Shown here: positions 19,835 to 64,000 of the stretch, piece by piece
Layout: each line of letters starts with the position of its first letter
Numbering within the stretch: the first letter of the stretch is position 1
IMG/VR virus record: IMGVR_UViG_3300017991_000060
Location: 53,866 to 117,865 of that record
Length of the DNA: 64,000 bases
Origin: a virus
Strand: one strand, 5' to 3'
Made by a program: the position numbers and the translations under genes
The notes under the pieces: model-generated
Seen by the model: only the letters and a program-made list of their open reading frames with translations
Database searches by the model: none
What the model was told of the DNA's origin: nothing

Positions 19835-20422
19835 CTACACCGGCGATGGGGAAGGCGGCGCGATAGGTGCCCTCACCATCACTTGGTTGCCAGCGAAGAT
19901 CGTCCGATCCAGCGCGAGCTGCACCGTCGAAACCCATTGCGCTTCCCCGAACCCTACCCCGCGCCCACGCCTCATTTCCTGCCCGTTCAGCGTCACTTCG
20001 ATGCGCCCGTCGTCCTCGAAATCGAGGCCGGACGCCGGAAGGAGGATGACAGGCTGACCGGGTGCCTGTAGAGCCGGGGTGTCTCCAATCACCGTCGCCG
20101 CTCCGCCAGCGTACGACCCGTCCTGGATGTTGATGGGCATGTTGGGCGGTACCGGAGCGCCGGAAAACGTGAGCGTCACCTCTACGAGCTGCCCACCGGC
20201 GTTCACCTTCGCCTGGAGGTCCTCGTCGAGCTCGCTCTCCGCCACCTTGGTACCGGACTCCGACGCCGGGTCGCCCGCCATGAGATCACGGTCCTTCGGG
20301 CCGATGGCGCGCGTGTTCCTGAAGGTGCGGCTGTCGAGCGTCCTCTGGGCGGCGTCGAGCGCGGCCTGGGACTCGCCGTAGGCGTCCTCGCGATCCTGCT
20401 CTCGGATCACCTTCTCCGTCAT
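19835..20422 (-). CDS. Virion protein, short relative of the following gene
   Basis: The 195-aa protein has a charged helical N-terminus (VIREQDREDAYGESQAALDA) and a beta-rich C-terminal half: LPASGLDFEDDGRIEVTLNG, RRGRGVGFGEAQWVSTVQLA, then TIFAGNQVMVRAP. The C-terminal pattern is also found in the next protein. The start ATG 20422 overlaps the TGA of the head-completion-like gene in an ATGA junction, so translation is likely coupled. Function is unknown beyond a structural role. Confidence 0.45.
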   Translation of the reverse strand: MTEKVIREQDREDAYGESQAALDAAQRTLDSRTFRNTRAIGPKDRDLMAGDPASESGTKVAESELDEDLQAKVNAGGQLVEVTLTFSGAPVPPNMPINIQDGSYAGGAATVIGDTPALQAPGQPVILLPASGLDFEDDGRIEVTLNGQEMRRGRGVGFGEAQWVSTVQLALDRTIFAGNQVMVRAPIAPPSPSPV

Positions 20423-55055: not shown

Positions 55056-55082
55056 ACCCTACAGGTTGAACACGCGACAATG
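55056..55082 (+). repeat. Imperfect direct repeat in the intergenic region, copy 1
   Basis: ACCCTA-x-AG-x-TTGA-x-CACGC-x-ACA is shared with 55096-55121, exactly 40 bases away. The pair brackets the predicted -10 element, so the repeats could be operators that control the HNH gene. This 219-base interval is visibly AT-richer than its surroundings and must also hold the promoter of the terminase operon, which I cannot place. Confidence 0.6.
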
Positions 55083-55095
55083 CGTGTGCTAAGAT
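55066..55095 (+). promoter_or_regulatory. Candidate sigma70-type promoter for the HNH gene
   Basis: TTGAAC (55066-55071) and TAAGAT (55090-55095) are separated by 18 bases and lie 36 bases upstream of the ATG at 55131. Both hexamers are close to the bacterial consensus. In a GC-rich genome such a match is noteworthy but not proof. Confidence 0.5.
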
Positions 55096-55121
55096 ACCCT
55101 AAAGATTGAGCACGCAACATG
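55096..55121 (+). repeat. Imperfect direct repeat in the intergenic region, copy 2
   Basis: Second copy of the element at 55056; it would lie in the transcribed leader just before the HNH gene ribosome site. Confidence 0.6.
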
Positions 55122-55130
55122 GGAGGGCCG

Positions 55131-55589
55131 ATGGCACGTAAGCGGTGGAAACACTCCAGCCACAAGTACCGGGCGGAGTACATGGCGTGGGCCAACATGC
55201 ACCGCCGGTGCTACGGCGGCCATCCGGTGGACTGGCAGTACCGCGCGCGGGGGATCGCTGTCTGCGCGCGGTGGGCCTCGTTCGACGCCTTCATGGATGA
55301 CCTTGGACCGCGGCCGACGAAGGGGCACACACTGGAACGGATCGACAACGAGGGCGACTACGCCCCCGAGAACTGCCGCTGGGCCACCTGGGGGGCGCAG
55401 CACAACAACAAGCGCGGCGTCGTGAAAGTCACGCTGGACGGGGAGACGCTCTCGCTCGCCCAGTGGGCGCGGCGCATCGGGATGAAGCCCGGAACCCTCC
55501 GGTGGCGGGTGTCGCGGGCGAGGGCCAACGGTGGCTCGGCAGAGGACGCCGTGCGGAAGGCCGTCGAAGACGCCGGGGGCGTGTTGTAG
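55131..55589 (+). CDS. HNH-type homing-endonuclease-like protein
   Basis: One of two plus-strand genes, 152 aa. I choose ATG 55131 because GGGAGG lies just before it; ATG 55119 would place that site inside the gene. The N-terminal 100 residues read YMAWANMHRRCYGG, ARGIAVCARWASFDAFMDDL, GPRPTKGHTLERIDNEGDYA, PENCRWATWGAQHNNKRG. This pattern (M-x-x-R-C, G-I-x-V-C-x-x-W, L-x-R-I-D-N-x-G-x-Y, N-C-R-W-A-T) is common in phage HNH-like selfish endonucleases. A C-terminal helix-turn-helix follows (LSLAQWARRIGMKPGTLRWR). It may cut DNA and home. It stands alone, with its own promoter candidate and facing terminators. Confidence 0.75.
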   Translation: MARKRWKHSSHKYRAEYMAWANMHRRCYGGHPVDWQYRARGIAVCARWASFDAFMDDLGPRPTKGHTLERIDNEGDYAPENCRWATWGAQHNNKRGVVKVTLDGETLSLAQWARRIGMKPGTLRWRVSRARANGGSAEDAVRKAVEDAGGVL

Positions 55590-55595
55590 GCGCGT

Positions 55596-55602
55596 CGGTC
55601 AG
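55596..55602 (+). repeat. CGGTCAG element after the HNH stop
   Basis: Seven bases after the HNH TAG stands CGGTCAGG followed by CGGCC, the same words as at the junctions of the accessory operon on the other strand. Confidence 0.5.
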
Positions 55603-55627
55603 GCGGCCGGGCCGCGGTCCAAATGCG

Positions 55628-55668
55628 AAAAAAGCGTGGCCGCACCGCCTTGCGTTGACGGTGCGGCC
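55628..55668 (-). terminator. Intrinsic terminator of the accessory operon
   Basis: Read on the minus strand, GGCCGCACCG and CGGTGCGGCC form a perfect 10-bp stem with an 11-base loop, followed four bases later by six T residues (A-run at 55628-55633). It lies 90 bases past the last accessory gene (stop at 55759) and is the clearest intrinsic terminator in the window. Confidence 0.9.
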
Positions 55669-55713
55669 TGGTATGGTGGTGAGAGTCGCTCCTGGCGATG
55701 CTGGATCATGCGC

Positions 55714-55737
55714 GGCCCGCGCCCCCGAACGCGGGCC
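55714..55737 (+). terminator. Hairpin between the convergent HNH and accessory genes
   Basis: GGCCCGCG and CGCGGGCC pair over 8 bp around an 8-base loop. There is no T-run on either strand. It may help to end HNH transcription coming from the left or pause the accessory transcript. The rest of the 169-base convergent interval holds no gene that I can support. Confidence 0.45.
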
Positions 55738-55758
55738 GTCGCTCTGTACAGGGCGCAT

Positions 55759-56028
55759 CTACGTGCGCCCGCTTGCACGAAACCCATCCACGATGGTCTC
55801 GATCCTGAACGCCCAGCCCCGGCCGTTCAGGATGCGGAGGGCGAGCTCCTTCGGACGCCGCGCGAGGTCCGGTCGCACGTCGTGTTTGGCGATCTCGACA
55901 TCCTCCTCCCCAGCGCGGCGGAACTTCGCGGCCATCTTCCGCGCGTCCTTCAAGGAGGTGTACCAACGGGAGCGGTCGTTCGTCTCGTCGGAGGGATCGA
56001 GGCCGGGGTCTACCTGGTAGAAGTGCAT
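55759..56028 (-). CDS. Hypothetical protein, last gene of the accessory operon
   Basis: The 89-aa protein begins MHFYQVDPGLDPSDETNDRS and contains RWYTSLKDARKMAAKFRRAG, then ALRILNGRGWAFRIETIVDG. A short beta strand, a basic helix and a beta hairpin are suggested, like small phage proteins of unknown role. Its ATG overlaps the stop of the zinc-finger gene by one base. The main operon terminator follows it. Confidence 0.5.
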   Translation of the reverse strand: MHFYQVDPGLDPSDETNDRSRWYTSLKDARKMAAKFRRAGEEDVEIAKHDVRPDLARRPKELALRILNGRGWAFRIETIVDGFRASGRT

Positions 56029-56504
56029 CACACCCCCACCTTCCCCGCGCCTTCGCACGTCGGGCACCGGACCTCCCCGGCCCCGCGGCACTCGTGACAG
56101 ATCGCCCCGTCGTGGCCGCCCTCGCCGCTCCCGGAGCACGAGGTACACATCACCGCGCCGGTGCCGCCGCAATCATCGCAGTCAGTCTCCGGCAAGTACT
56201 CGTCGTCCGCTCCGCACTTGCACCCGGTCCGCATCCCGCAGCGGTAGCACTTCTTCTGGAAGAGCTTCGCGCCCATGAGCGGTCCGAACACCCAAGCGGC
56301 CGGGAGGCGGTCGGAGCGCCCCAGGGCAAAGATGCACGAGAGGACCCCGGCGATGAAGTCCGCCTCGCTCTTGAGGCTTCCGGCGTCGGCCCGCTGATTC
56401 CCGGCCGCCTCGGCGTACTCGAAGATGGCCTCGCACTGGGCCTCGGTGAGCGGCTCTACACCTTCGCGGGCGAGCATCTCCCGCGCGAGTCTGTCCAGGT
56501 CCAT
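56028..56504 (-). CDS. DnaJ-type zinc-finger protein without J domain
   Basis: The 158-aa protein has a helical N-terminus (residues 1-80), then CYRCGMRTGCKC (Cys86, 89, 95, 97) and four CxxCxGxG units: CDDCGGTG (109-116), CTSCSGSG (120-127), CHECRGAG (136-143) and CPTCEGAG (147-154). Four such units are the zinc-binding domain of DnaJ/Hsp40. The J domain with HPD is absent, so it cannot stimulate DnaK in the usual way. It may bind unfolded proteins or an unknown partner during infection. It overlaps both neighbours by one base. Confidence 0.75.
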   Translation of the reverse strand: MDLDRLAREMLAREGVEPLTEAQCEAIFEYAEAAGNQRADAGSLKSEADFIAGVLSCIFALGRSDRLPAAWVFGPLMGAKLFQKKCYRCGMRTGCKCGADDEYLPETDCDDCGGTGAVMCTSCSGSGEGGHDGAICHECRGAGEVRCPTCEGAGKVGV

Positions 56505-56821
56505 CAGTCGCTCCCTTCCGCGGCCGTCGCCGCCCTCTCGGCCTCGCACTCGGCGCACAGCTTGTCGCCGGGGAGCACGTACTCCCCGCAGTCGTCGCAC
56601 CGATGGCAGAACCCCCGGTGCGTGTAGTCGCACTTCTCGCAGTACTCCTCGCGGACGAAGGTGATCTCCTCCAGGGCGGCGAGGGCCTCCCTCCGCGCGT
56701 CGTCGAGCTCCCGCGCGTCCTCGGCGCGCGAGGCTCGGTCCAGGATGTCGGCGGCCTTGATGAGCGCCTCCACCGTGTCGTCCACGTCGAACCACTGGCC
56801 CAGGTGATATGCTCCGGCCAC
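56504..56821 (-). CDS. Small protein with C-terminal zinc ribbon
   Basis: The 105-aa protein starts at GTG 56821, eight bases after GGAGG. It has an N-terminal helical part (VEALIKAADILDRASRAEDA) and a Cys-rich end with YCEKCDYTHRGFCHRCDDCG then LCAECEAERAA, giving three CxxC pairs and one further Cys pair partner. It belongs to the run of zinc-binding small proteins in this operon. No family recognised. Confidence 0.55.
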   Translation of the reverse strand: MAGAYHLGQWFDVDDTVEALIKAADILDRASRAEDARELDDARREALAALEEITFVREEYCEKCDYTHRGFCHRCDDCGEYVLPGDKLCAECEAERAATAAEGSD

Positions 56822-56822
56822 G

Positions 56823-57026
56823 CTACACCTCCTCCCCGGCCGCCAGTCGGCGGTACCGCTTCTCCGTTCCCTGGTCATCCCAGCCGGTGCTCTGGCCAGG
56901 CACGATCACGAGGTACCCGTACGCGGCGCGCACCTCGACTCCGAACCCGTCCTCATCGGCCGCCGCCCGCACGGCGCGGGCAGCGGCGGAATCGACCGGG
57001 CGCACGATGAAGAATCGCTCGCTCAT
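56823..57026 (-). CDS. 67-aa hypothetical protein
   Basis: The product starts MSERFFIVRPVDSAAARAVR and has VEVRAAYGYLVIVPGQS, a small alpha/beta outline. The ribosome site AGGAGCGGGCGATG follows the operon's usual wording. No function can be suggested. Confidence 0.5.
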   Translation of the reverse strand: MSERFFIVRPVDSAAARAVRAAADEDGFGVEVRAAYGYLVIVPGQSTGWDDQGTEKRYRRLAAGEEV

Positions 57027-57039
57027 CGCCCGCTCCTTC

Positions 57040-57222
57040 CTACTCCCCCAACGTGTCGAATATCGGGGTTCCGTCCTTGCGTTCGCCGTGGGGGTTGTCG
57101 CACACGGGGTCCTCCCACCCCTCCTCCGAGGCGAAGATGGGCTCGGCGTCCTCGTGCGGTTTGCACTCCGCGCAGTACGCCGCCCCGTCGTGCGTCCAGC
57201 CCACGATCTCCCATGCCTTCAC
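57040..57222 (-). CDS. 60-aa hypothetical protein with CxxC
   Basis: Read from GTG 57222. It starts VKAWEIVGWTHDGAAYCAEC, continues with HEDAEPIFASEEGWEDPVCD and ends FDTLGE. Three Cys residues (CAEC and a later C) could bind zinc with His. Similar short proteins are frequent in phages of GC-rich hosts. Confidence 0.5.
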   Translation of the reverse strand: MKAWEIVGWTHDGAAYCAECKPHEDAEPIFASEEGWEDPVCDNPHGERKDGTPIFDTLGE

Positions 57223-57236
57223 TTGTCCGCTCCTCT

Positions 57237-57243
57237 CTGACCG
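57237..57243 (-). repeat. CGGTCAG start-associated element
   Basis: Between the stop at 57250 and the GTG start at 57222. Read on the minus strand the junction is TAG-GCCCGC-CGGTCAG-AGAGGAGCGGA, then the start codon, so the element links the stop of one gene to the ribosome site of the next. Confidence 0.6.
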
Positions 57244-57249
57244 GCGGGC

Positions 57250-57546
57250 CTACAGCACCCGCAAACCCAGCTTCTTCGCCTTGCGCTTCGCCTCCCGCCT
57301 CCGGCACGCGAGGGCGGCCTGGTACACGTCGTCGTACGAGCCGACGCTTCGGAGCGTCTCCTCGATGCGCTTGATGGTGGCCTTCGTCTGTTCGACCCGT
57401 TCCGTCATGCCGCGCTTGGCGAACCGTTCGCGGCGGTCGGCCAGCCGACAGAGACGCGCGGCAGTGCGGGCGCACTGGGCTTTGCTCCACCGCTTATCCA
57501 ATGGCTTCGTGTTCACTGGCTTCCTGGGCCTCTTCCGCTTGCTCAT
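57250..57546 (-). CDS. Basic hypothetical protein
   Basis: The 98-aa protein is strongly basic: KRKRPRKPVNTKPLDKRWSK, ARLCRLADRRERFAKRGMTE, then AACRRREAKRKAKKLGL-like ending. Its ATG overlaps the upstream TGA (ATGA). The charge suggests nucleic-acid binding, possibly as a helical hairpin (residues 20-90). No family recognised. Confidence 0.5.
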   Translation of the reverse strand: MSKRKRPRKPVNTKPLDKRWSKAQCARTAARLCRLADRRERFAKRGMTERVEQTKATIKRIEETLRSVGSYDDVYQAALACRRREAKRKAKKLGLRVL

Positions 57547-57890
57547 CGCTCGCTCGTTCCTTCCTGGTGGGCGCGAGGCCCCCCTCCGGGGGATTGAGAC
57601 CTGATGATCCCGTCCTTGATCGCGCCCTCCACGATGGTCTGGCGCTCCTCCTCGGTGAGCTCCCCCCACCAGTGGGGGGCCTTGTCATCGTTGTCGGGGC
57701 TCCGGCGGCCGTCGGGGTACTCGACGGTCCCGTTGGAACCGTCGCCCCCGAGGGGAGTCGGGTTTTTCGCTTCGCTCAAGGCGCGCCAGAGCTTGCGGTA
57801 GAGGTCATTCCCCACGCCTGGGATGCACTCGGCCACCTCGTCGGCGGTCCAGTACTCCAGCTCGGCGGGGCACTTGGTGGGTTCGCGCAT
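57543..57890 (-). CDS. Hypothetical protein with a short helical core
   Basis: The 115-aa protein has ELEYWTADEVAECIPGVGND then LYRKLWRALSEAK at its start, a Gly/Asp-rich loop (residues 46-70), and WWGELTEEERQTIVEGAIKD. The last helix resembles the E-E-x-x-x-I-x-E-x-x-x-x-x-x-x-I segment of small phage proteins. No function is suggested. Confidence 0.45.
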   Translation of the reverse strand: MREPTKCPAELEYWTADEVAECIPGVGNDLYRKLWRALSEAKNPTPLGGDGSNGTVEYPDGRRSPDNDDKAPHWWGELTEEERQTIVEGAIKDGIIRSQSPGGGPRAHQEGTSER

Positions 57891-57908
57891 CGTCTCTCTC
57901 CTTCCTTC

Positions 57909-57915
57909 CTGACCG
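57909..57915 (-). repeat. CGGTCAG start-associated element
   Basis: Junction between the 351-aa gene stop (57922) and the ATG at 57890. The minus strand reads TAG-GCCGCT-CGGTCAG-GAAGGAAGGAGA before the start. Confidence 0.65.
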
Positions 57916-57921
57916 AGCGGC

Positions 57922-58977
57922 CTACGAGGCCACCCGTGCTTCTGCCACCACCGCGGGGAGCGGCGGCAGCTCGATCTCCTCACGCCAGCCCGGCCGGAAC
58001 ACATCGAGGAACCCTTCCAAGAGGGACCGGCGCGGGTACAACTTGATGGAATACCTGGAGTCCGGCCCTACCTCGACCAGCCCCTCCTCGTCTGTCTCCG
58101 CGGCCTTGGGGTCCTTCCAGACCTCCAAGAGATTCCGGCCGATGATCGCGCGCTGGGGCCGCTTCCAAGCGCGGGCGTTCTTCTTCGTGGGGCGGAGGTA
58201 CTCCCTCTTCAGGAACCGCGACAGCGCGCGGCCCAACTTCGTGGTGGCGGTGTCATGCGTGGACACCTCGACCAGCCCGAACCCGATCAGCGGGTTGTAG
58301 TCTTTCCGGTGCTTGTCCACTGTCTTTGGCTTCGGTGAGTACGCCTCGTTCGCCATACGGAGAAGGAGGGTGCGCGACGCTTGGGGGAGCCGGAAGCGGA
58401 TGGCGTCGAGCTCCTCATCTGAGATGAGGTCGCCACGCACCGCCTCGACCTCGGCCTCGGCCTTGGCGAGCGCCTCTTCCGCGCGGGCGAGGGCGGCCGG
58501 GAGGTCGGAGAGCTTCTGGAGGGCGACGGCGTGAGCCTTCGCCGCCGCCACCGGCGAGTGGAACCCGCGCTCGGTGATCTGGAAGAGGTGAACGTACGGC
58601 TTGAGCGCGGGGCGGCCGTATACGACGTGCCGCAAGCGGCTCGCGGCTTCGCGGAACGCGCGCTTCGCCTCGCCGTACTCCACGAGGACCTTCTGCGCGT
58701 GCGGCGTGGGATCGCCCCACCCCTTGAGGGAGCGGCATCGGTTCTTCGCCTTCTCAGCCGCCCGGAGGGCCGTGCGCGCCTTCCGGTACTCCTGGTCGTA
58801 CTGGAGGAAGAATGGCTCGTCGAGGGCCGCCTGGAGGTCCCTACCGGCCTTGGCTGCGGCTTCCAGCGAGCCGTGCGTTCGGATGGCGAGGTCGAGTTCG
58901 GAGCGGATGTTCGCAACCGTCTGTCTTCGCCACTGTGCACCTTGCTCGGCGTGTTTGAGGTCCTCTTTCGTTTGCAT
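57922..58977 (-). CDS. Coiled-coil protein with a winged-helix-like segment
   Basis: The 351-aa protein is helical in residues 1-195, including a coiled coil (LARAEEALAKAEAEVEAVRG). From about 200 it has ASRTLLLRMANEAYSPKPKT, then YNPLIGFGLVEVSTHDTATT and KLGRALSRFLKREYL. The order helix, helix, G-L-V strand, T-x-L-G helix is that of winged-helix domains such as MarR. The end (RSLLEGFLDVFRPGWREEIE) is an extra. It may be a DNA-binding regulator of the phage or host, an inference from outline only. Confidence 0.4.
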   Translation of the reverse strand: MQTKEDLKHAEQGAQWRRQTVANIRSELDLAIRTHGSLEAAAKAGRDLQAALDEPFFLQYDQEYRKARTALRAAEKAKNRCRSLKGWGDPTPHAQKVLVEYGEAKRAFREAASRLRHVVYGRPALKPYVHLFQITERGFHSPVAAAKAHAVALQKLSDLPAALARAEEALAKAEAEVEAVRGDLISDEELDAIRFRLPQASRTLLLRMANEAYSPKPKTVDKHRKDYNPLIGFGLVEVSTHDTATTKLGRALSRFLKREYLRPTKKNARAWKRPQRAIIGRNLLEVWKDPKAAETDEEGLVEVGPDSRYSIKLYPRRSLLEGFLDVFRPGWREEIELPPLPAVVAEARVAS

Positions 58978-58995
58978 CGCAGCCTCCCTGGTCTT

Positions 58996-59118
58996 TCATG
59001 TCCGGCCGTTGAGGTCCTCCCTGGTGAGCGAGCTCTCCGCGAGGAGGTCCCCCTCGACCTCGTGTTCGTTGAGGACCTCCTCGTCCCCCCTACCGCAGAT
59101 GTGGCATTTCCTCGGCAT
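58996..59118 (-). CDS. 40-aa protein with CxxC
   Basis: The frame starts MPRKCHICGRGDEEVLNEHE and ends LTREDLNGRT, with GGAGGG upstream of ATG 59118 and a TGA stop. CHIC followed by an acidic region and a His suggests a partial zinc knuckle. It fits exactly between its neighbours, which supports it as a real small gene. Confidence 0.5.
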   Translation of the reverse strand: MPRKCHICGRGDEEVLNEHEVEGDLLAESSLTREDLNGRT

Positions 59119-59132
59119 AGCACGCCCTCCTT

Positions 59133-60278
59133 TCATGCCCCCCGGATGGGGTGGCAAAACTCCGGCCCGTGGTCCTCATCGACAGAGGCGACGAGCGCCT
59201 CCCAGTGCTCCGGCTCCGGCTCGGTGCGGTCGGTCCAGTCGGGCGCGCGGAGCGCCTTCTTCGCGCGCTTGAGAGCGGCGGCCGTCGCGGTGTCCTCGGC
59301 TTTCTCGGCTTCCTCGATCTCCTTGCGAAGCCGGGCCACCTTGTTCGCGTATTTCCCCCAGTCATCAGGAAGGAGCCCGGCGCGTACGGCGAGCCCCTTC
59401 CAGTCCGTCGGGAGGAGCCCCTCCGCTACCAAGCGCGCGCGCCAGCTCCAATTGCGGGGCTTGGTGTCCTCGGGTCCCTTGTCAGCCTTCGTCCGGGTGA
59501 GCCCCAGGCCATTGCATTTGCTCAGGCCGTGCTTGCCCGTCTCGGCGCGGTACTCGATGACCGCGGCGAGGAGGGCGAGGTCGGGGTGCCGCCGCGCGAG
59601 GTCAAACACTTCCTCGGGGCGCGCGGCCGGGCAGAAAAAGCACGCCGACTTCGGGCAGCACCGGGCAGAGATGCTACGCTCGAACTCGTCGCCCATCTCC
59701 TTGCGGATGATCGCGATGAGGTCGGGCCGCTCCAGGCCCCAAACGGACTGGAGGGGGTACCAGAACTCCCAACGGTTCTCGCCTTTCCCCTCGGCTTGCC
59801 GCTTCTCCTCCCGCTTCGCCCAGGCACCGAACCGCTTGCGGTCCGCGGGGGAGTTGTCGTACCCGATGGCGCGGATGACCCTACGTCCCTCGCGGAGCGC
59901 ACGCTTCGCTGGCTTCCAGGCGAGCACGTCCGCGTCGAGCGGGCCATGCTTCCACTTGATGGAGCACGAGGACGGCCCAAAGGAGAGGCCGGGGAGGGTG
60001 TCGTTCGCGAGGCAGTTCCCGTGCAGCGTCGTGTACGGCGCGCGTTTCGGCTCGTAACGAACGACCGTCACGCCAGGGAACCCCACGTCCTTGCACCAGC
60101 GGTGCATGATCCCGACGGTGACGTACGTGTCCGGCGACTCGCTCCCCACGTCCGCGAAGATGATCCGGTCGGGGCGGATGCCCTCCCGGTGGAGGAGGAC
60201 GAGCATCGCGGTTGAGTCCACGCCCGCCCCGTACGAGACGACCAGCGGTCCGTCGCACGGCAAAAGGTCCCTACCCAT
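59133..60278 (-). CDS. PAPS-reductase-family PP-loop ATPase
   Basis: The 381-aa protein starts at ATG 60278, eight bases inside the upstream gene. Its N-terminus LVVSYGAGVDSTAMLVLLHR has the PP-loop S-x-G-x-D-S, followed by PDRIIFADVGSESPDTYVTV, YTTLHGNCLANDTLPGLSFG and SSCSIKWKHGP. Around residue 215 is ISARCCPKSACFFCPAARPE, a four-Cys cluster that may hold zinc or Fe-S. The enzymes of this family use ATP to activate sulfate or nucleotide substrates. Phage members are common and their substrate is usually unknown. The C-terminal 110 residues are an Ala/Lys/Glu-rich extra. Confidence 0.75.
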   Translation of the reverse strand: MGRDLLPCDGPLVVSYGAGVDSTAMLVLLHREGIRPDRIIFADVGSESPDTYVTVGIMHRWCKDVGFPGVTVVRYEPKRAPYTTLHGNCLANDTLPGLSFGPSSCSIKWKHGPLDADVLAWKPAKRALREGRRVIRAIGYDNSPADRKRFGAWAKREEKRQAEGKGENRWEFWYPLQSVWGLERPDLIAIIRKEMGDEFERSISARCCPKSACFFCPAARPEEVFDLARRHPDLALLAAVIEYRAETGKHGLSKCNGLGLTRTKADKGPEDTKPRNWSWRARLVAEGLLPTDWKGLAVRAGLLPDDWGKYANKVARLRKEIEEAEKAEDTATAAALKRAKKALRAPDWTDRTEPEPEHWEALVASVDEDHGPEFCHPIRGA

Positions 60279-60522
60279 CGCTCTCCTCCTCGGCGCGGAC
60301 CAGGCCCGCGCACAGTTGGCAACGCCCATCGTCGTCGAGGTCGTCGGCGGTCCCGCACTCGCGGCAGTACCCATCGTACGCGCCGGGCGCTTGGCACTCG
60401 CCCTCCCCGTCGCACCCGGCCGCCTCGCACTCGTGGCAGAACGCCGGGACGGTCCAGTCGTCAGAGATGGCGATCTCCATGCAATCCCGGCACCGGCAGT
60501 TCGTGTACCCGCTCTGGGCCAT
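60271..60522 (-). CDS. Cys-rich zinc-ribbon protein
   Basis: The 83-aa protein reads MAQSGYTNCRCRDCMEIAIS, then FCHECEAAGCDGEGECQAPG, YCRECGTADDLDDDGRCQLC. It has at least ten Cys residues in CxC, CxxC pairs, enough for two zinc ribbons. ATG 60522 follows GGAAGGAGCGCGAGGG. Its TAG overlaps the start of the PP-loop gene by eight bases, so the two are probably coupled. Confidence 0.65.
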   Translation of the reverse strand: MAQSGYTNCRCRDCMEIAISDDWTVPAFCHECEAAGCDGEGECQAPGAYDGYCRECGTADDLDDDGRCQLCAGLVRAEEESDG

Positions 60523-60537
60523 CCCTCGCGCTCCTTC

Positions 60538-60544
60538 CTGACCG
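60538..60544 (-). repeat. CGGTCAG start-associated element
   Basis: Junction between the 55-aa gene stop (60551) and ATG 60522. The minus strand reads TAG-GCGCGC-CGGTCAG-GAAGGAGCGCGAGGG before ATG. Confidence 0.65.
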
Positions 60545-60550
60545 GCGCGC

Positions 60551-60718
60551 CTACACGCGCCGGAGCTCTGACCAGCGACCCTCGATGATGAGAGGGTCGC
60601 GGGAGGTGTTGATCGAGGCGGCGTACTCGGCCGCCGCCTCGCGGGTGGGGAACACCCGTTGCGCTCCCGGCGGGAGCTCGTCGTACGGCACGAACGGGCA
60701 CCCTCTCCACGTCTCCAT
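60551..60718 (-). CDS. 55-aa hypothetical protein
   Basis: ATG 60718 behind AGAGGAGGAAAG opens a 55-codon frame: METWRGCPFVPYDELPPGAQ, then RVFPTREAAAEYAASINTSR and DPLIIEGRWSELRRV. The outline is a short strand, a helix and a final strand, like many small phage proteins. No function can be suggested. Confidence 0.55.
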   Translation of the reverse strand: METWRGCPFVPYDELPPGAQRVFPTREAAAEYAASINTSRDPLIIEGRWSELRRV

Positions 60719-60742
60719 GCTTTCCTCCTCTCCCTACGGGTT

Positions 60743-60749
60743 CGGTCAG
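60743..60749 (+). repeat. CGGTCAG element, opposite orientation
   Basis: Here the heptamer stands on the plus strand (CTGACCG on the transcribed side), directly beside an 18-base perfect palindrome (60748-60765) of GGCCGCC/GGCGGCC that covers the TAG of the 185-aa gene. Confidence 0.6.
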
Positions 60750-60763
60750 GCCGCCGCGGCGGC

Positions 60764-61321
60764 CTAGTCCTCCTCCGCGTCGCAGTTCGGGCAGAGCCCA
60801 CAGTCGAGCTCTTCCCCGCACTCCTCGCACTCGCCGCAGTCCGGGCACTCCCCGTCGTCGTCGAGCTCCGCCCCGCAGACTTCGCAGACGCCGCACTCGT
60901 CGTCGTACTCGCACGCGCCCGAGGCTTCGAGCTCGGCCCACCGCTTCTCCGCCTCGCGCTCCTCGGCTTCCAGGCGGACGATGAGCGTCGTCAGCGGCTC
61001 GCCCTCGGGGAGCGCGGCGCACGGTCCCTCCAGGACCACGTAGACGTATCCCCCCGGCGAGTACGGACGCCTCCACCGGAGGGTCCACCCGGTGAGCGCA
61101 TCCCATCCCTCGTCGATGCACCGGCGGATGGCTTCGCCCACGCGCCGGAGCGCCTCCTTCCGCGTCTCGACGCTGGGCGGGGTGCCCTTCTCGCTCACCC
61201 GGCCGGGCACGCAACCGGGGAGCCCCTCCTCGACCTCGGACGCGATGAGTCGCGCGCCCCAGGCATCCTCGACCGTCGGCTCCAGCCCGAACCAGTGCTC
61301 CGTCACGTTCTCGCTACCCAT
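60764..61321 (-). CDS. Acidic protein with C-terminal Cys cluster
   Basis: The 185-aa protein has an alpha/beta N-terminal domain (DAWGARLIASEVEEG, RRVGEAIRRCIDEGWDALTG, YVYVVLEGPCAALPEGEPLT) and from residue 135 an Asp/Glu/Cys-rich tail: CEYDDECGVCEVCGAELDDD, then CPDCGECEECGEELDC and CPNC. About 14 Cys in the tail could bind several zinc ions. A long leader with two hairpins precedes it. Confidence 0.55.
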   Translation of the reverse strand: MGSENVTEHWFGLEPTVEDAWGARLIASEVEEGLPGCVPGRVSEKGTPPSVETRKEALRRVGEAIRRCIDEGWDALTGWTLRWRRPYSPGGYVYVVLEGPCAALPEGEPLTTLIVRLEAEEREAEKRWAELEASGACEYDDECGVCEVCGAELDDDGECPDCGECEECGEELDCGLCPNCDAEED

Positions 61322-61359
61322 CGCTCACCTCCTGGTGGTTTCTCGCTTGCCCTCGTCAG

Positions 61360-61397
61360 GGCCGGTTCCACCGGCCGACGCGGGGGCGCATCCCCGC
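61360..61397 (-). promoter_or_regulatory. Two adjacent hairpins in the leader of the 185-aa gene
   Basis: GGCCGG-TTCCA-CCGGCC (61360-61376) and GCGGGG-6 bases-CCCCGC (61380-61397) lie in the 88-base gap between the 99-aa gene stop and the start at 61321. They could pause polymerase or mask the ribosome site. No T-run is present. Confidence 0.4.
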
Positions 61398-61409
61398 GTT
61401 TCGGGCTGG

Positions 61410-61709
61410 CTACAGCCTCCCGCCGCTCGCGTGCTTCGCGGCGACGACCATCTCGTACGTCGCGCGGAGGGCGGGTGTCTCCGCGTCGCTCAGGTTCGCG
61501 AGGACCTCGACCACGAGGCCGCGGATCGCCGCGCGGTACCGCTCCCCCAGGGCTTCCTCGACCCGTTGCACGTCGTCGAGGGAAAGCGTGTACTCCTCGC
61601 CGCACTCCGGGCACGTCTCCCGCTCGTAATCGACGAGGACCGCGAGGCCATCCAGCGTCGCCCCGCACTCGTGCGCCTCGCCGCACCGCTCACACGTCAC
61701 GCTCACCAT
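61410..61709 (-). CDS. Zinc-ribbon protein, 99 aa
   Basis: ATG 61709 behind GGAAGGAGCGAGCG opens MVSVTCERCGEAHECGATLD, then YERETCPECGEEYTLSLDDV and a helical C-terminus (RYRAAIRGLVVEVLANLSD). CxxC, a lone Cys and a second CxxC give a zinc ribbon with a helical tail. A role as adaptor or regulator is possible. Confidence 0.6.
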   Translation of the reverse strand: MVSVTCERCGEAHECGATLDGLAVLVDYERETCPECGEEYTLSLDDVQRVEEALGERYRAAIRGLVVEVLANLSDAETPALRATYEMVVAAKHASGGRL

Positions 61710-61722
61710 CGCTCGCTCCTTC

Positions 61723-61729
61723 CTGACCG
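61723..61729 (-). repeat. CGGTCAG start-associated element
   Basis: The clearest copy: on the minus strand TAG-GCCGCC-CGGTCAG-GAAGGAGCGAGCG, then ATG 61709. The stop is that of the 95-aa gene (61736). Confidence 0.7.
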
Positions 61730-61735
61730 GGCGGC

Positions 61736-62023
61736 CTACAGCGGCTTCCAGCCCCCGCCCGTGTGGTACTCGATGTCCGTGCATCCCCAGCCGCCGCGCC
61801 CCCAGTCGTCCAGGGGCTCGAACCCGGAGGCGCGCCCGTCGAGGTCCACGAAGAACCCCTCCCCGTAGACCTCCCCGTCCGCGTCCTTCAGGCGGAACCG
61901 CTCCGCGTCCGGGTGTGTTGCGATGTCCTCACCGGCGAGGGTCGCCCCCCGCGGCCCGACCAGTCCGACCCGTTGGTCCGACTCGATGTAGTCTCGGGTG
62001 ATGACCCAGGCGTACTTGCTCAT
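61736..62023 (-). CDS. Conserved-looking phage protein, 95 aa
   Basis: The product starts MSKYAWVITRDYIESDQRVG and continues LVGPRGATLAGEDIA, HPDAERFRLKDADGEVYGEG, then EPLDDWGRGGWGCTDIEYHT. The outline (a Y-x-W-V-I-T-x-D strand, G-P-R/G, F-R/K-x-x-D-D-D/A-G-x-x-Y-Y/G-x-G, then G-x-T-x-I-x-Y) is frequent in small phage proteins of GC-rich hosts, with unknown role. It begins in an ATGA overlap with the upstream gene. Confidence 0.6.
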   Translation of the reverse strand: MSKYAWVITRDYIESDQRVGLVGPRGATLAGEDIATHPDAERFRLKDADGEVYGEGFFVDLDGRASGFEPLDDWGRGGWGCTDIEYHTGGGWKPL

Positions 62024-62268
62024 TCTTCCCTCCCCTCGTGGTCGATGCGGTGGCTCCAGCGGCGCTCGTGCTTGTTGAGGTACTCCAAGGTCTCCGGGGC
62101 GCAGGACCCCGGACCGTCGAAGAGACGCCGCACTTCCTCCTCGTGGTCCTCGTCGAGCTTGAAGCAGTAGAAGTTCCCCCGGATGGGTCGGCCGATGGAG
62201 ATGATCCCGGCCCCTTGGCAGACCACATAGATGAAGCCGGGGTGCGTCTGCGGGTTGAGCGATTGCAT
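62020..62268 (-). CDS. 82-aa hypothetical protein
   Basis: The product reads MQSLNPQTHPGFIYVVCQGA, GIISIGRPIRGNFYCFKLDE, then EVRRLFDGPGSCAPETLEYL. It is probably a small alpha/beta protein. ATG 62268 has GAAGG upstream. It is coupled to the following 95-aa gene. Confidence 0.5.
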   Translation of the reverse strand: MQSLNPQTHPGFIYVVCQGAGIISIGRPIRGNFYCFKLDEDHEEEVRRLFDGPGSCAPETLEYLNKHERRWSHRIDHEGREE

Positions 62269-62290
62269 GTCCTTCCCTCCTCTACAGGTT

Positions 62291-62297
62291 CGGTCAG
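62291..62297 (+). repeat. CGGTCAG element, opposite orientation
   Basis: Between the TAG of the second PP-loop gene (62308) and ATG 62268, in the same orientation as the copy at 60743; on the transcribed strand it is followed by AACCTGTAGAGGAGGGAAGG. Confidence 0.6.
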
Positions 62298-62307
62298 GGC
62301 CGGGCGG

Positions 62308-63477
62308 CTAGCTCGGCCCCGCGTTCTCTCCGAAGGCTCCGGCCGGGAGCTTCCACGCCCCCTCCGGTACGATGATCCGTCCGCGGTACTGCTCGCGCCC
62401 CGCGGCGGCGGCGATCCGTTCGGCCGCGCCACCGAGGCACGCCTGGTACACCTCGCCCCGGTCGGCGCGCTCCCTGAGCGTCTCCGAACGGTGGAGGGTG
62501 CCCTTGAACCGCTTGCCCTTGCACTTCGGGCAGCGGTCCGTCCCGGAGGCGAAGCCCGCCCCGCACTTCTTGCACCGCGTGCTCCAGTGGTCTACGAACG
62601 TGTCCTCCAGGGTGGCGATTGCCTGGAAGCGGTCGGGGTAAATGTGGCGGAGGCTCGCCCACTGATTCGGGGAGCCGAAGATGCAAGCGGCACACGAGAG
62701 GCGGCCCCAGCCCAGGCGGTACGCGGCATGGGGGGCGACGCGCCACCGCTCGATGATCGCCCACACCTCGGCCTCGGCCCAGGCGTGCACCGGACGCCAG
62801 CGGTCGATGTGCCTACGCACCCGCTTCCCGTTGCGCGAGTCGGCCCGGTCGGGCTCGAACACCTTGTACTTCGCCCGGTTCGAGCTCTCCTCGGCGCGCT
62901 CCCCGGTGACGGTGAGCGTCCGGCCCCGCTGGAACCGGGGGTCCTTGATGAGTGCCTTGTCCGCGGCGTCGATCTTCAGGAGGGCGGAGCACCACCGGGC
63001 GCGGAGGTCGGCCGACACCTGGGGGAAGCAGAAGCGGGTCCCGACCTTCGCCCGCTCGCCACCGTGGCGGAGCACCTGGACCTTGCCGCCTACCACTTGC
63101 TCCCAAGCGTACCCGGCCGACTTCGCATCCCGCTTCAGGAGCTCCCGCTCGAACCCGCCCTGCTTCCACTGGAAGAGGACCCGCACTCCGAAGGCGTCGC
63201 CCAGGGCTCGGACGTACGACGGGACATCGAGCCAGTCGAAGAGGGCGCTACCTTCTCTCCCGTCGATGCAGTGGTGCCACAGCTCGATCTTCTCCCGAGG
63301 CACGCCCAGCTCCAGGAGGTACAGGAAGCACGCCAGCGAGTCCTTCCCGCCGGACGTGCAGACGACCACCCGGTCGTACGTCCGGGGGTCGCACGGGAGC
63401 GCCGCGACGTTGTGCTGGGGGGCGCTCGTCGGCGCGGCGAACTTCGGCGCGCAAGGCGCGCAGCTCGGAACCTTCAT
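62308..63477 (-). CDS. Second PP-loop ATPase, PAPS-reductase / DndC-like
   Basis: The 389-aa protein starts at ATG 63477. RVVVCTSGGKDSLACFLYLL (from residue 35) has the PP-loop S-G-G-x-D-S. Further on are IELWHHCIDGREGSALFDWL, FCFPQVSADLRARWCSALLK, TVTGERAEESSNRAKYKVF, WRPVHAWAEAEVWAIIER and LGWGRLSCAACIFGSPNQW. The order C...L-K-I, G-x-R-x-x-E-S-x-x-R, W-x-x-x-x-V-W, R-x-S-C-x-x-C-I is that of PAPS reductases and DndC-like proteins. A zinc ribbon at the C-terminus (CKKCGAGFASGTDRCPKCKG) is additional. Substrate unknown. Confidence 0.8.
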   Translation of the reverse strand: MKVPSCAPCAPKFAAPTSAPQHNVAALPCDPRTYDRVVVCTSGGKDSLACFLYLLELGVPREKIELWHHCIDGREGSALFDWLDVPSYVRALGDAFGVRVLFQWKQGGFERELLKRDAKSAGYAWEQVVGGKVQVLRHGGERAKVGTRFCFPQVSADLRARWCSALLKIDAADKALIKDPRFQRGRTLTVTGERAEESSNRAKYKVFEPDRADSRNGKRVRRHIDRWRPVHAWAEAEVWAIIERWRVAPHAAYRLGWGRLSCAACIFGSPNQWASLRHIYPDRFQAIATLEDTFVDHWSTRCKKCGAGFASGTDRCPKCKGKRFKGTLHRSETLRERADRGEVYQACLGGAAERIAAAAGREQYRGRIIVPEGAWKLPAGAFGENAGPS

Positions 63478-63490
63478 CGTCCTCTCCTCT

Positions 63491-63497
63491 CTGACCG
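63491..63497 (-). repeat. CGGTCAG start-associated element
   Basis: Between the stop at 63504 and the PP-loop gene ATG at 63477: TAG-GGCCGC-CGGTCAG-AGAGGAGAGGACG before the start on the minus strand. Confidence 0.65.
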
Positions 63498-63503
63498 GCG
63501 GCC

Positions 63504-63956
63504 CTACAGCGAAGCGAGCCGCCGGTGGATGTTCTCGTTGTGGACCTTGACGGCCTCGTCGCACTTCTCCAGGAGCTCCGCGGCCTTGCACCCGTACCGC
63601 TCGTGCAGCGGCGTGTACCCGGACGTGAGCCGCCCGTGCGCGGTCCGCCCCCCGTAATCCTCCTCCGACCTCCGGATGGCCGCCGCGAAGCCCGCGCCCG
63701 CCACCGTGGCGAGGAGGCACCCGTGCGACAGCCCGTAGAGCTCGGCCGCCGGGCTGTCCGGGCTGTTGAACCCGTCCCGGAAGCACTGCACCAGGAGGGC
63801 CTTCGCGGCGTGAATGCTCCCCCGGTCGCCGCGCTCGATGCGGAGCGCCTCGCTCCAGAGGCGCGGCCCGGTGTGGTCGTGGCACGAGAAGGCGTACTCG
63901 ACGGCCTGGTACGCCCGGTTGATGATCTCGCGTTCCTTCCTCGTGTACTCGCTCAT
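63504..63956 (-). CDS. Hypothetical helical protein
   Basis: The 150-aa protein starts MSEYTRKEREIINRAYQAVE and is mostly helical (SIHAAKALLVQCFRDGFNSP, LLATVAGAGFAAAIRRSEED), ending in KAAELLEKCDEAVKVHNENI. The helices are amphipathic. ATG 63956 has GAGGAGCGAGCG. No family recognised. Confidence 0.5.
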   Translation of the reverse strand: MSEYTRKEREIINRAYQAVEYAFSCHDHTGPRLWSEALRIERGDRGSIHAAKALLVQCFRDGFNSPDSPAAELYGLSHGCLLATVAGAGFAAAIRRSEEDYGGRTAHGRLTSGYTPLHERYGCKAAELLEKCDEAVKVHNENIHRRLASL

Positions 63957-63978
63957 CGCTCGCTCCTCTCTACGTGAT

Positions 63979-63985
63979 CGGTCAG
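63979..63985 (+). repeat. CGGTCAG element, opposite orientation
   Basis: Last visible copy, upstream of ATG 63956. The gene it would follow lies beyond the right edge of the window. Confidence 0.55.
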
Positions 63986-64000
63986 GCCGCCCCGGAGGGC

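Follow-up and report, generated by a model that had tools for sequence, protein, structure and literature searches.

Predicted stop codon hairpins and a candidate hammerhead ribozyme mark the long gene junctions of a phage accessory operon

Results

The DNA analyzed here is a 64,000-nucleotide stretch (the window; G000:C1:53866-117865) at the right end of IMG/VR virus record IMGVR_UViG_3300017991_000060, which is 117,865 bases long and whose remainder was read as three stretches. The record is that of a tailed phage and encodes a terminase, portal, major head protein, tail sheath and tape measure. Heuristic gene calling by codon usage yielded 143 genes, leaving 6.9% of the record as intergenic DNA, although five gaps of more than 300 bases may contain missed genes. 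On the minus strand at the end of the window lies a putative accessory operon of 18 small genes (55759-64000) that runs past the contig end; two of its genes are PAPS-reductase-like and several are zinc-ribbon-like. Here, we characterize the elements that stand between the genes of this operon, most of which carry a recurring heptamer, CGGTCAG.

A first-pass annotation had described CGGTCAG as a start-associated repeat occurring at nine sites near the operon, and the coordinate and strand of every site proved correct. At five sites (57237, 57909, 60538, 61723 and 63491; forward or F orientation), the transcribed minus strand reads TAG, six GC-rich bases, CGGTCAG, a ribosome site and a start codon, as claimed, except that one of the starts is GTG rather than ATG. 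The heptamer is reversed at 60743, 62291 and 63979 (R orientation), and the copy at 55596 is 3′ of the stop codon of a plus-strand HNH gene. Placement between a stop codon and the next ribosome site, which had been put forward for the operon copies, holds for the sites in general; at 63979, the contig end leaves the upstream stop out of view.

The heptamer is not enriched in the window as a whole, where 15 matches compare with 18.1 ± 4.0 expected. Its distribution, on the other hand, is strongly biased. Of 17 copies in the record, 11 fall in called intergenic DNA (hypergeometric log10 p -9.2), making CGGTCAG the most intergenic-biased 7-mer of the record. One of the 11, at window position 20054, is doubtful, as its gap is covered by an open frame that the gene caller dropped. 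The safer count of 10 of 17 gives a log10 p of -7.8, or about 1e-4 after correction for 8192 words. Equal frequency inside genes, the outcome that would have undermined the idea of a start-associated junction repeat, was therefore not observed. Nine of the ten intergenic copies lie in the 55.6-64.0 kb region, and the tenth, at G000:7996, is in the other half of the record, outside the window. The shorter word GGTCAG was rejected as the unit, since 17 of its 60 copies are intergenic but 11 of those 17 are the full heptamer.

The positions of the elements follow the spacing of the genes. Nine of the 17 inner operon junctions are tight (-40 to +18 bases), and none of these has an F element, an R element or a ribozyme. 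The remaining eight, spaced by 26 to 88 bases, are occupied by five F elements, two R elements and one hammerhead, such that all eight gaps of at least 26 nucleotides (nt) contain an element compared to none of the nine tighter junctions. The third R copy is 5′ of the first operon gene, at the contig end. The heptamer is thus found at seven of the 17 inner junctions, with stop-to-start gaps of 26, 39, 26, 45, 28, 31 and 27 bases, as well as at the start of the first gene. The junction elements mark the starts of blocks of closely packed genes.

At each F site, the RNA can fold into a hairpin around the stop codon. The strongest (63491-63526, minus strand, as are all elements of the operon; CGGTCAG at 63491-63497) has the stem ACCGGCGGC/GCCGCCGGU with the stop in the loop (-21.2 kcal/mol, shuffle p 0.003). 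At 60538-60563 (CGGTCAG at 60538-60544), the stem CCGGCGCG/CGCGCCGG, also with the stop in its loop, is followed by UCAG and the ribosome site (-18.3 kcal/mol, p 0.003). The hairpin at 57909-57936 (CGGTCAG at 57909-57915) covers the end and stop of gene 57922-58977 (-17.4 kcal/mol, p 0.01), and because it contains two G-U pairs, it suits RNA more than DNA. At 57237-57269 (CGGTCAG at 57237-57243, followed by the ribosome site), the hairpin spans the end of gene 57250-57546, the stop and the six following bases (-13.5 kcal/mol, p 0.013); here the stop is within the stem, and forcing it into the loop gives -9.7 kcal/mol. The weakest of the five (61723-61761; CGGTCAG at 61723-61729) has the stem CGGGCGG/CCGCCCG and a 20-nt loop containing the stop (-11.8 kcal/mol, p 0.06).

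Similarity among the five F elements begins at the last codon, takes in the ribosome site and covers 25 to 32 bases. The 5′ arms lie in the upstream flanks, which are coding and differ among the sites, and still each arm pairs with the 3′ partner at its site. With the stop held in the loop, the five sites sum to -63.6 kcal/mol, compared to -21.8 ± 7.8 with gene ends drawn at random from the phage (0 of 1000 reached the native value) and -31.1 ± 7.4 when their own ends were shuffled (0 of 500). Synonymous recoding of the last eight codons (loop limit 22) gave -36.5 ± 8.5, while the native sum was -70.7 (0 of 500). As the hairpin was first spotted by eye at these sites, the tests are not blind, and most weight belongs to the synonymous and random-end controls. 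Copies of the heptamer elsewhere behave differently: all seven sites that can be read as F reach -8.3 kcal/mol or lower, while the seven other copies (six genic plus the doubtful one at 20054) all stay at -4.2 or above (p 3e-4). The mean was -12.1 for nine operon gene ends, those before the eight gaps of 26 nt or more plus that of the last gene, compared to -3.9 for 45 ends outside the operon with gaps of at least 20 (p 3e-5). Thus, the earlier suggestion of an RNA-level site is backed by hairpins whose 5′ arm is coding and that genic copies lack. The last operon gene, too, has a stop-in-loop hairpin (window 56041-56067, minus strand; -13.3 kcal/mol), without the heptamer.

R elements have a different layout. 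Their three copies share the consensus CUGACCGAWCNYGUAGRG 5′ of the ribosome site, and in two of them a hairpin is immediately 5′ of the heptamer complement. At 60743-60764, this hairpin comes right after the stop (-11.0 kcal/mol, p 0.02) and is followed by CUGACCGAACCCGUAG and the ribosome site of gene 60551-60718. At 62291-62319, it extends over the stop of gene 62308-63477 (-10.1 kcal/mol, p 0.04) and precedes CUGACCGAACCUGUAG and the ribosome site of gene 62020-62268. The copy at 63979-64000, truncated by the contig end, consists of GGCGGCCUGACCGAUCACGUAG and the ribosome site of gene 63504-63956, and the truncated sequence folds at -1.3 kcal/mol (p 0.81). When R sites were compared with genic copies, the difference reached only p 0.046.

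The only long operon gap without the heptamer, the 88-nt g5/g6 gap between genes 61410-61709 and 60764-61321, contains, at 61349-61406, what is probably an addition to an established family, the type II hammerhead ribozymes. The full Rfam model RF02276 matches at 30.4 bits (E 0.0011; 0.0053 in a larger search), which is below the curated cut-off of 37. The core of the element is intact, with GAAA, GUC and CUGACGA where type II forms have GAAA, NUH and CUGANGA. In order, the parts are stem II (GCCC/GGGC), GAAA, stem III (CGCGGGG/CCCCGCG), UC, stem I (GGCCGGU/ACCGGCC) and CUGACGA; stems I and III are closed and II is open, with 4 (II), 8 (III) and 7 (I) pairs in the fold. The hammerhead is both the minimum-energy and the centroid fold of the gap (-41.0 kcal/mol, z -2.3). 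Cleavage is predicted after the C of GUC, between stems III and I. A strict descriptor matched once across the record and the relatives' contigs L005 and L006, and not at all in 6 Mb of simulated sequence; the remainder of the record contained no other Rfam match, and no close copy of the ribozyme was found there or in L005 and L006. Type II forms commonly, though not universally, have a pseudoknot between loop I and the 3′ tail. By eye, GGUGG at loop I is complementary to CCACC in the tail (window 61322-61345, minus strand), but in the fold the tail is also paired to the next gene's ribosome site. Alternative pairing of CCACC with loop I or the ribosome site is a possible switch.

The secondary structure, core and setting of this element match published type II hammerheads, which are described as common in bacteria, as occurring near prophages and in phage gaps (PaP3, Bcep176), and as forming clusters between genes on polycistronic RNA that cleave in vitro (RF02276; PMC3088659). 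We asked if R elements are degenerate hammerheads and rejected the idea. The R2 copy and the ribozyme have CCGGCCCTGAC in common (shuffle p 0.043), but the core fails, as R carries CUGACCGA and no R copy appeared in the strict scan or in a relaxed scan allowing CUGA-N1-2-GA. A still looser scan returned one dubious arrangement each for R1 and R2 and none for R3.

Two intergenic copies of the heptamer lie outside the operon. For the one after the HNH stop (55596-55615), the minus strand reads as a hairpin followed by CTGACCG, as in R; the R reading scores -7.9 kcal/mol (p 0.02) and the F reading -8.7 (p 0.096). This HNH gene (window 55119-55589, plus strand) sits between the operon terminator and the terminase gene and is missing from L005 and L006, two contigs that otherwise align on either side of it. 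The terminator is intrinsic (55638-55668, minus strand; hairpin plus T run) and follows the last operon gene; no hairpin followed by a T run was found at any F, R or hammerhead junction of the operon. The copy at G000:7996, the tenth, has no R-type hairpin. It is flanked (G000:7028-9027, L002) by a second HNH-like gene and a MucR/Ros-like zinc-finger gene on the minus strand, both recognized by eye, and has TTGTAG..CGTCGGTCAGGCGGC in common with the 55596 site. Other words that repeat across the record in gaps near promoter-like stretches, as at window 55060-55100 and G000:7831, are ATACCC/GGGTAT (11 of 24 copies intergenic) and AACCTGTAG.

The relatives found, L005 (8.4 kb) and L006 (4.3 kb), are contigs of a single phage whose terminase is 81% identical; g2, g11 and terminase queries gave only these, and a terminase search of genome_contigs gave none. 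Of 32 loci with a relative of the PAPS-like gene g9, 31 are not L005, and only heptamer counts were taken from them. L005, the one relative spanning the region, gives a divided answer as to whether homologous junctions keep the heptamer. The end of an element (GTCAGAAGGAG) precedes its PAPS-like gene: the contig opens with GTCAGAAGGAGCGAGTGATG 5′ of the homologue of gene 59133-60278, with two of the seven letters beyond the contig end, which fits a conserved F element. After the homologue of gene 57922-58977, the word is absent. A different L005 junction reads GGCCGG-UAG-CCGGCC-AGAAAGGAG, with CGGCCAG for CGGTCAG (-11.1 kcal/mol, p 0.035). As the only such hairpin among 13 stops tested, it is no more than suggestive of the F design. 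Two further features of this contig were noted, a promoter-like TTGACA, 16 bases, TATACT within its accessory region (L005:1497-1530), of a kind not seen in the window operon, and a strong UUCG-loop hairpin between a stop and a ribosome site (L005:4394-4440), a third junction style in the relative.

Exact searches of viral_contigs found no match to the F pattern, and none to the R pattern outside the phage's own record. Four F matches in genome_contigs are all within long open frames and were taken as chance. A looser tail pattern matched L038 (the same contig as L005), L006 and L039; the last, a contig of 53% GC without a terminase, was also taken as chance. L003 and L004 have two GGTCAG copies that look R-like, without the full word.

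Discussion

Our favored explanation, to which we assign a probability of roughly 0.55, is that the heptamer is the most conspicuous part of a set of RNA elements at the junctions of a polycistronic phage mRNA, where they would act as insulators between cistrons or as processing sites. An RNA-level element is favored because the coding ends are tuned to the spacer, G-U pairs occur in a stem, a ribozyme occupies a sister gap and the elements are strictly tied to long gaps. In this model, the operon would be transcribed as a single mRNA in which tightly spaced or overlapping genes have no separating element, while each new gene block would be preceded, between the stop codon and the following ribosome site, by one of three structures: an F hairpin around the stop codon, ending in (CGG)UCAG beside the ribosome site; an R element, made up of a hairpin, CUGACCGAWC..GUAG and the ribosome site; or a self-cleaving hammerhead. 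A stable local hairpin may occupy a GC-rich coding end that could otherwise base-pair with the ribosome site downstream, and may reduce carry-over of ribosomes past the stop, such that each block would be initiated independently. Consistent with this, structure directly 3′ of a stop codon lowers translational coupling, according to a review (PMC12548453). The hammerhead would cut the mRNA, leaving a 3′ end shielded by stem III and a downstream mRNA that starts with the stem I hairpin. Computation establishes where the elements lie, how they can fold, that this folding exceeds controls and that the hammerhead core is intact; a single transcript, cleavage, insulation and the reason for keeping the heptamer are inferences.

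Several observations weigh against this explanation. Relatives are limited to one short one, and no true covariation alignment is possible. Single-site p values are modest (0.003 to 0.06, for -11.8 to -21.2 kcal/mol with the position of the stop unforced). When arms were swapped among the five F sites, the true arrangement ranked second of 120, not first, because the 3′ arms are similar. Hairpin support for R comes from two full sites of three in the operon, and the G000:7996 copy is not at the start junction of any called gene. The main fact that hairpins alone leave uncovered is that R bears the exact reverse complement of the F word, which points to a DNA-level or RNA-RNA role.

One rival reading is a DNA site, in which a phage protein would bind the heptamer in either orientation as an operator or roadblock and the hairpins would be incidental to GC-rich DNA. 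The same seven letters occur both ways round relative to the genes, two copies (55596 and G000:7996) are outside operon start junctions, and repeated intergenic inverted repeats of cluster O and EG phages are thought to bind proteins (PMC4351075, PMC7302621). However, the heptamer is short and non-palindromic, an operator has no need of coding-end arms that fit the intergenic arm down to the choice of synonymous codons, and genic copies lack the hairpins. We consider this reading unlikely, if the strongest of the competitors. An RNA-RNA role could take the form of a long-range system with R and F as its halves: CCUGACCG of R would pair with CGGUCAG(G) of the next F and loop out the mRNA of the enclosed block (63504-63956, 61736-62268 or 60551-60718), whose translation would be tuned as a unit. 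This, or an undescribed class of self- or enzyme-processed junction RNAs beside the true hammerhead, seems to us quite improbable.

The same R...F pairs (63979/63491, 62291/61723 and 60743/60538) could instead be the ends of mobile units, with genes exchanged by recombination at the repeat. R and F are reverse complementary, each pair brackets one or two genes, and L005 has an entirely different set of genes between its homologues of 57922-58977 and 56028-56504. Set against this, no target duplication was seen, two more F sites have no R partner, with 3 R and 5 F sites every R is followed by an F in 10 of 56 orders (counted by hand), or about 18% by chance, and L005 is simply without the element at the 3′ junction of its 57922 homologue. 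A cassette junction appears improbable, falling between the DNA site and the long-range system in our ranking. A pure translation-start signal, in which the heptamer is a conserved upstream extension of the ribosome site, would explain why F elements lead directly into GGAAGGAGCG, which is little changed. Since many genes of this phage and L005 have the same ribosome site without the heptamer, the consensi of known start-associated sequences (SAS) are absent and R copies are reversed and at least 9 bases upstream, we find it very doubtful. Chance repetition in GC-rich spacers, which the window-wide count would allow, is the least credible, as the word leads all intergenic 7-mers after correction and F copies agree over far more than seven bases. 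Stop codon readthrough or bypass was rejected, as the gap lengths put the genes in differing frames and no fusion is implied, and recoding is disfavored because TAG is the commonest stop (66 of 139 gene ends).

Compared with known systems, the RNA junction elements work like SAS or extended SAS (ESAS) at most and are not members. The likeness to the SAS of cluster K mycobacteriophages that had been proposed stands for position, as these also recur just 5′ of the start codons of certain non-structural genes, and only of such genes, in some cases with a further inverted repeat directly upstream. It does not extend to consensus or placement. The cluster K SAS is itself the 13-bp ribosome site (GGGATAGGAGCCC; PMC3203893), which has three window matches with at most two mismatches (2.5 expected) and none in the operon, while the heptamer precedes the ribosome site, overlaps the end of the upstream gene and occurs in two orientations. 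That paper reports little support for mRNA hairpins at ESAS (PMC3203893); here, in contrast, coding ends are tuned to pair. Nor do F elements form 17-bp imperfect inverted repeats of shared sequence, as ESAS do, since their 5′ arms do not align and only the 3′ side is shared. Microbacterium cluster EF ESAS are centered on GTAGAG (PMC7302621), and R elements have GTAGAG or GTAGGG just 5′ of the ribosome site, a likeness of a single short word; the EF SAS consensus GGGAAAGGACCCC is not found beyond chance (two matches with two mismatches, 3.4 expected). REP sequences were rejected as a parallel: these have GTAG at the hairpin foot, outside the palindrome, and a RAYT-type mobilization gene, while in F elements GTAG is in the hairpin loop; RAYT genes were not searched for. 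RiboJ-type insulators of synthetic biology join a hammerhead to a hairpin upstream of a ribosome site; the ribozyme described here is natural and lies between cistrons, and we infer its insulating function. No stop-in-loop junction repeats in phages were found in the literature searched, which was mostly without subscription journals.

Phage accessory operons often swap small genes, and how newcomers avoid mis-translation through their neighbors is an open question. If our explanation is correct, elements built from coding ends around the stop codon, together with one ribozyme, would be a natural insulator set, and the start-associated repeats of other phages, which have long gone without an explanation, would gain a physical interpretation.

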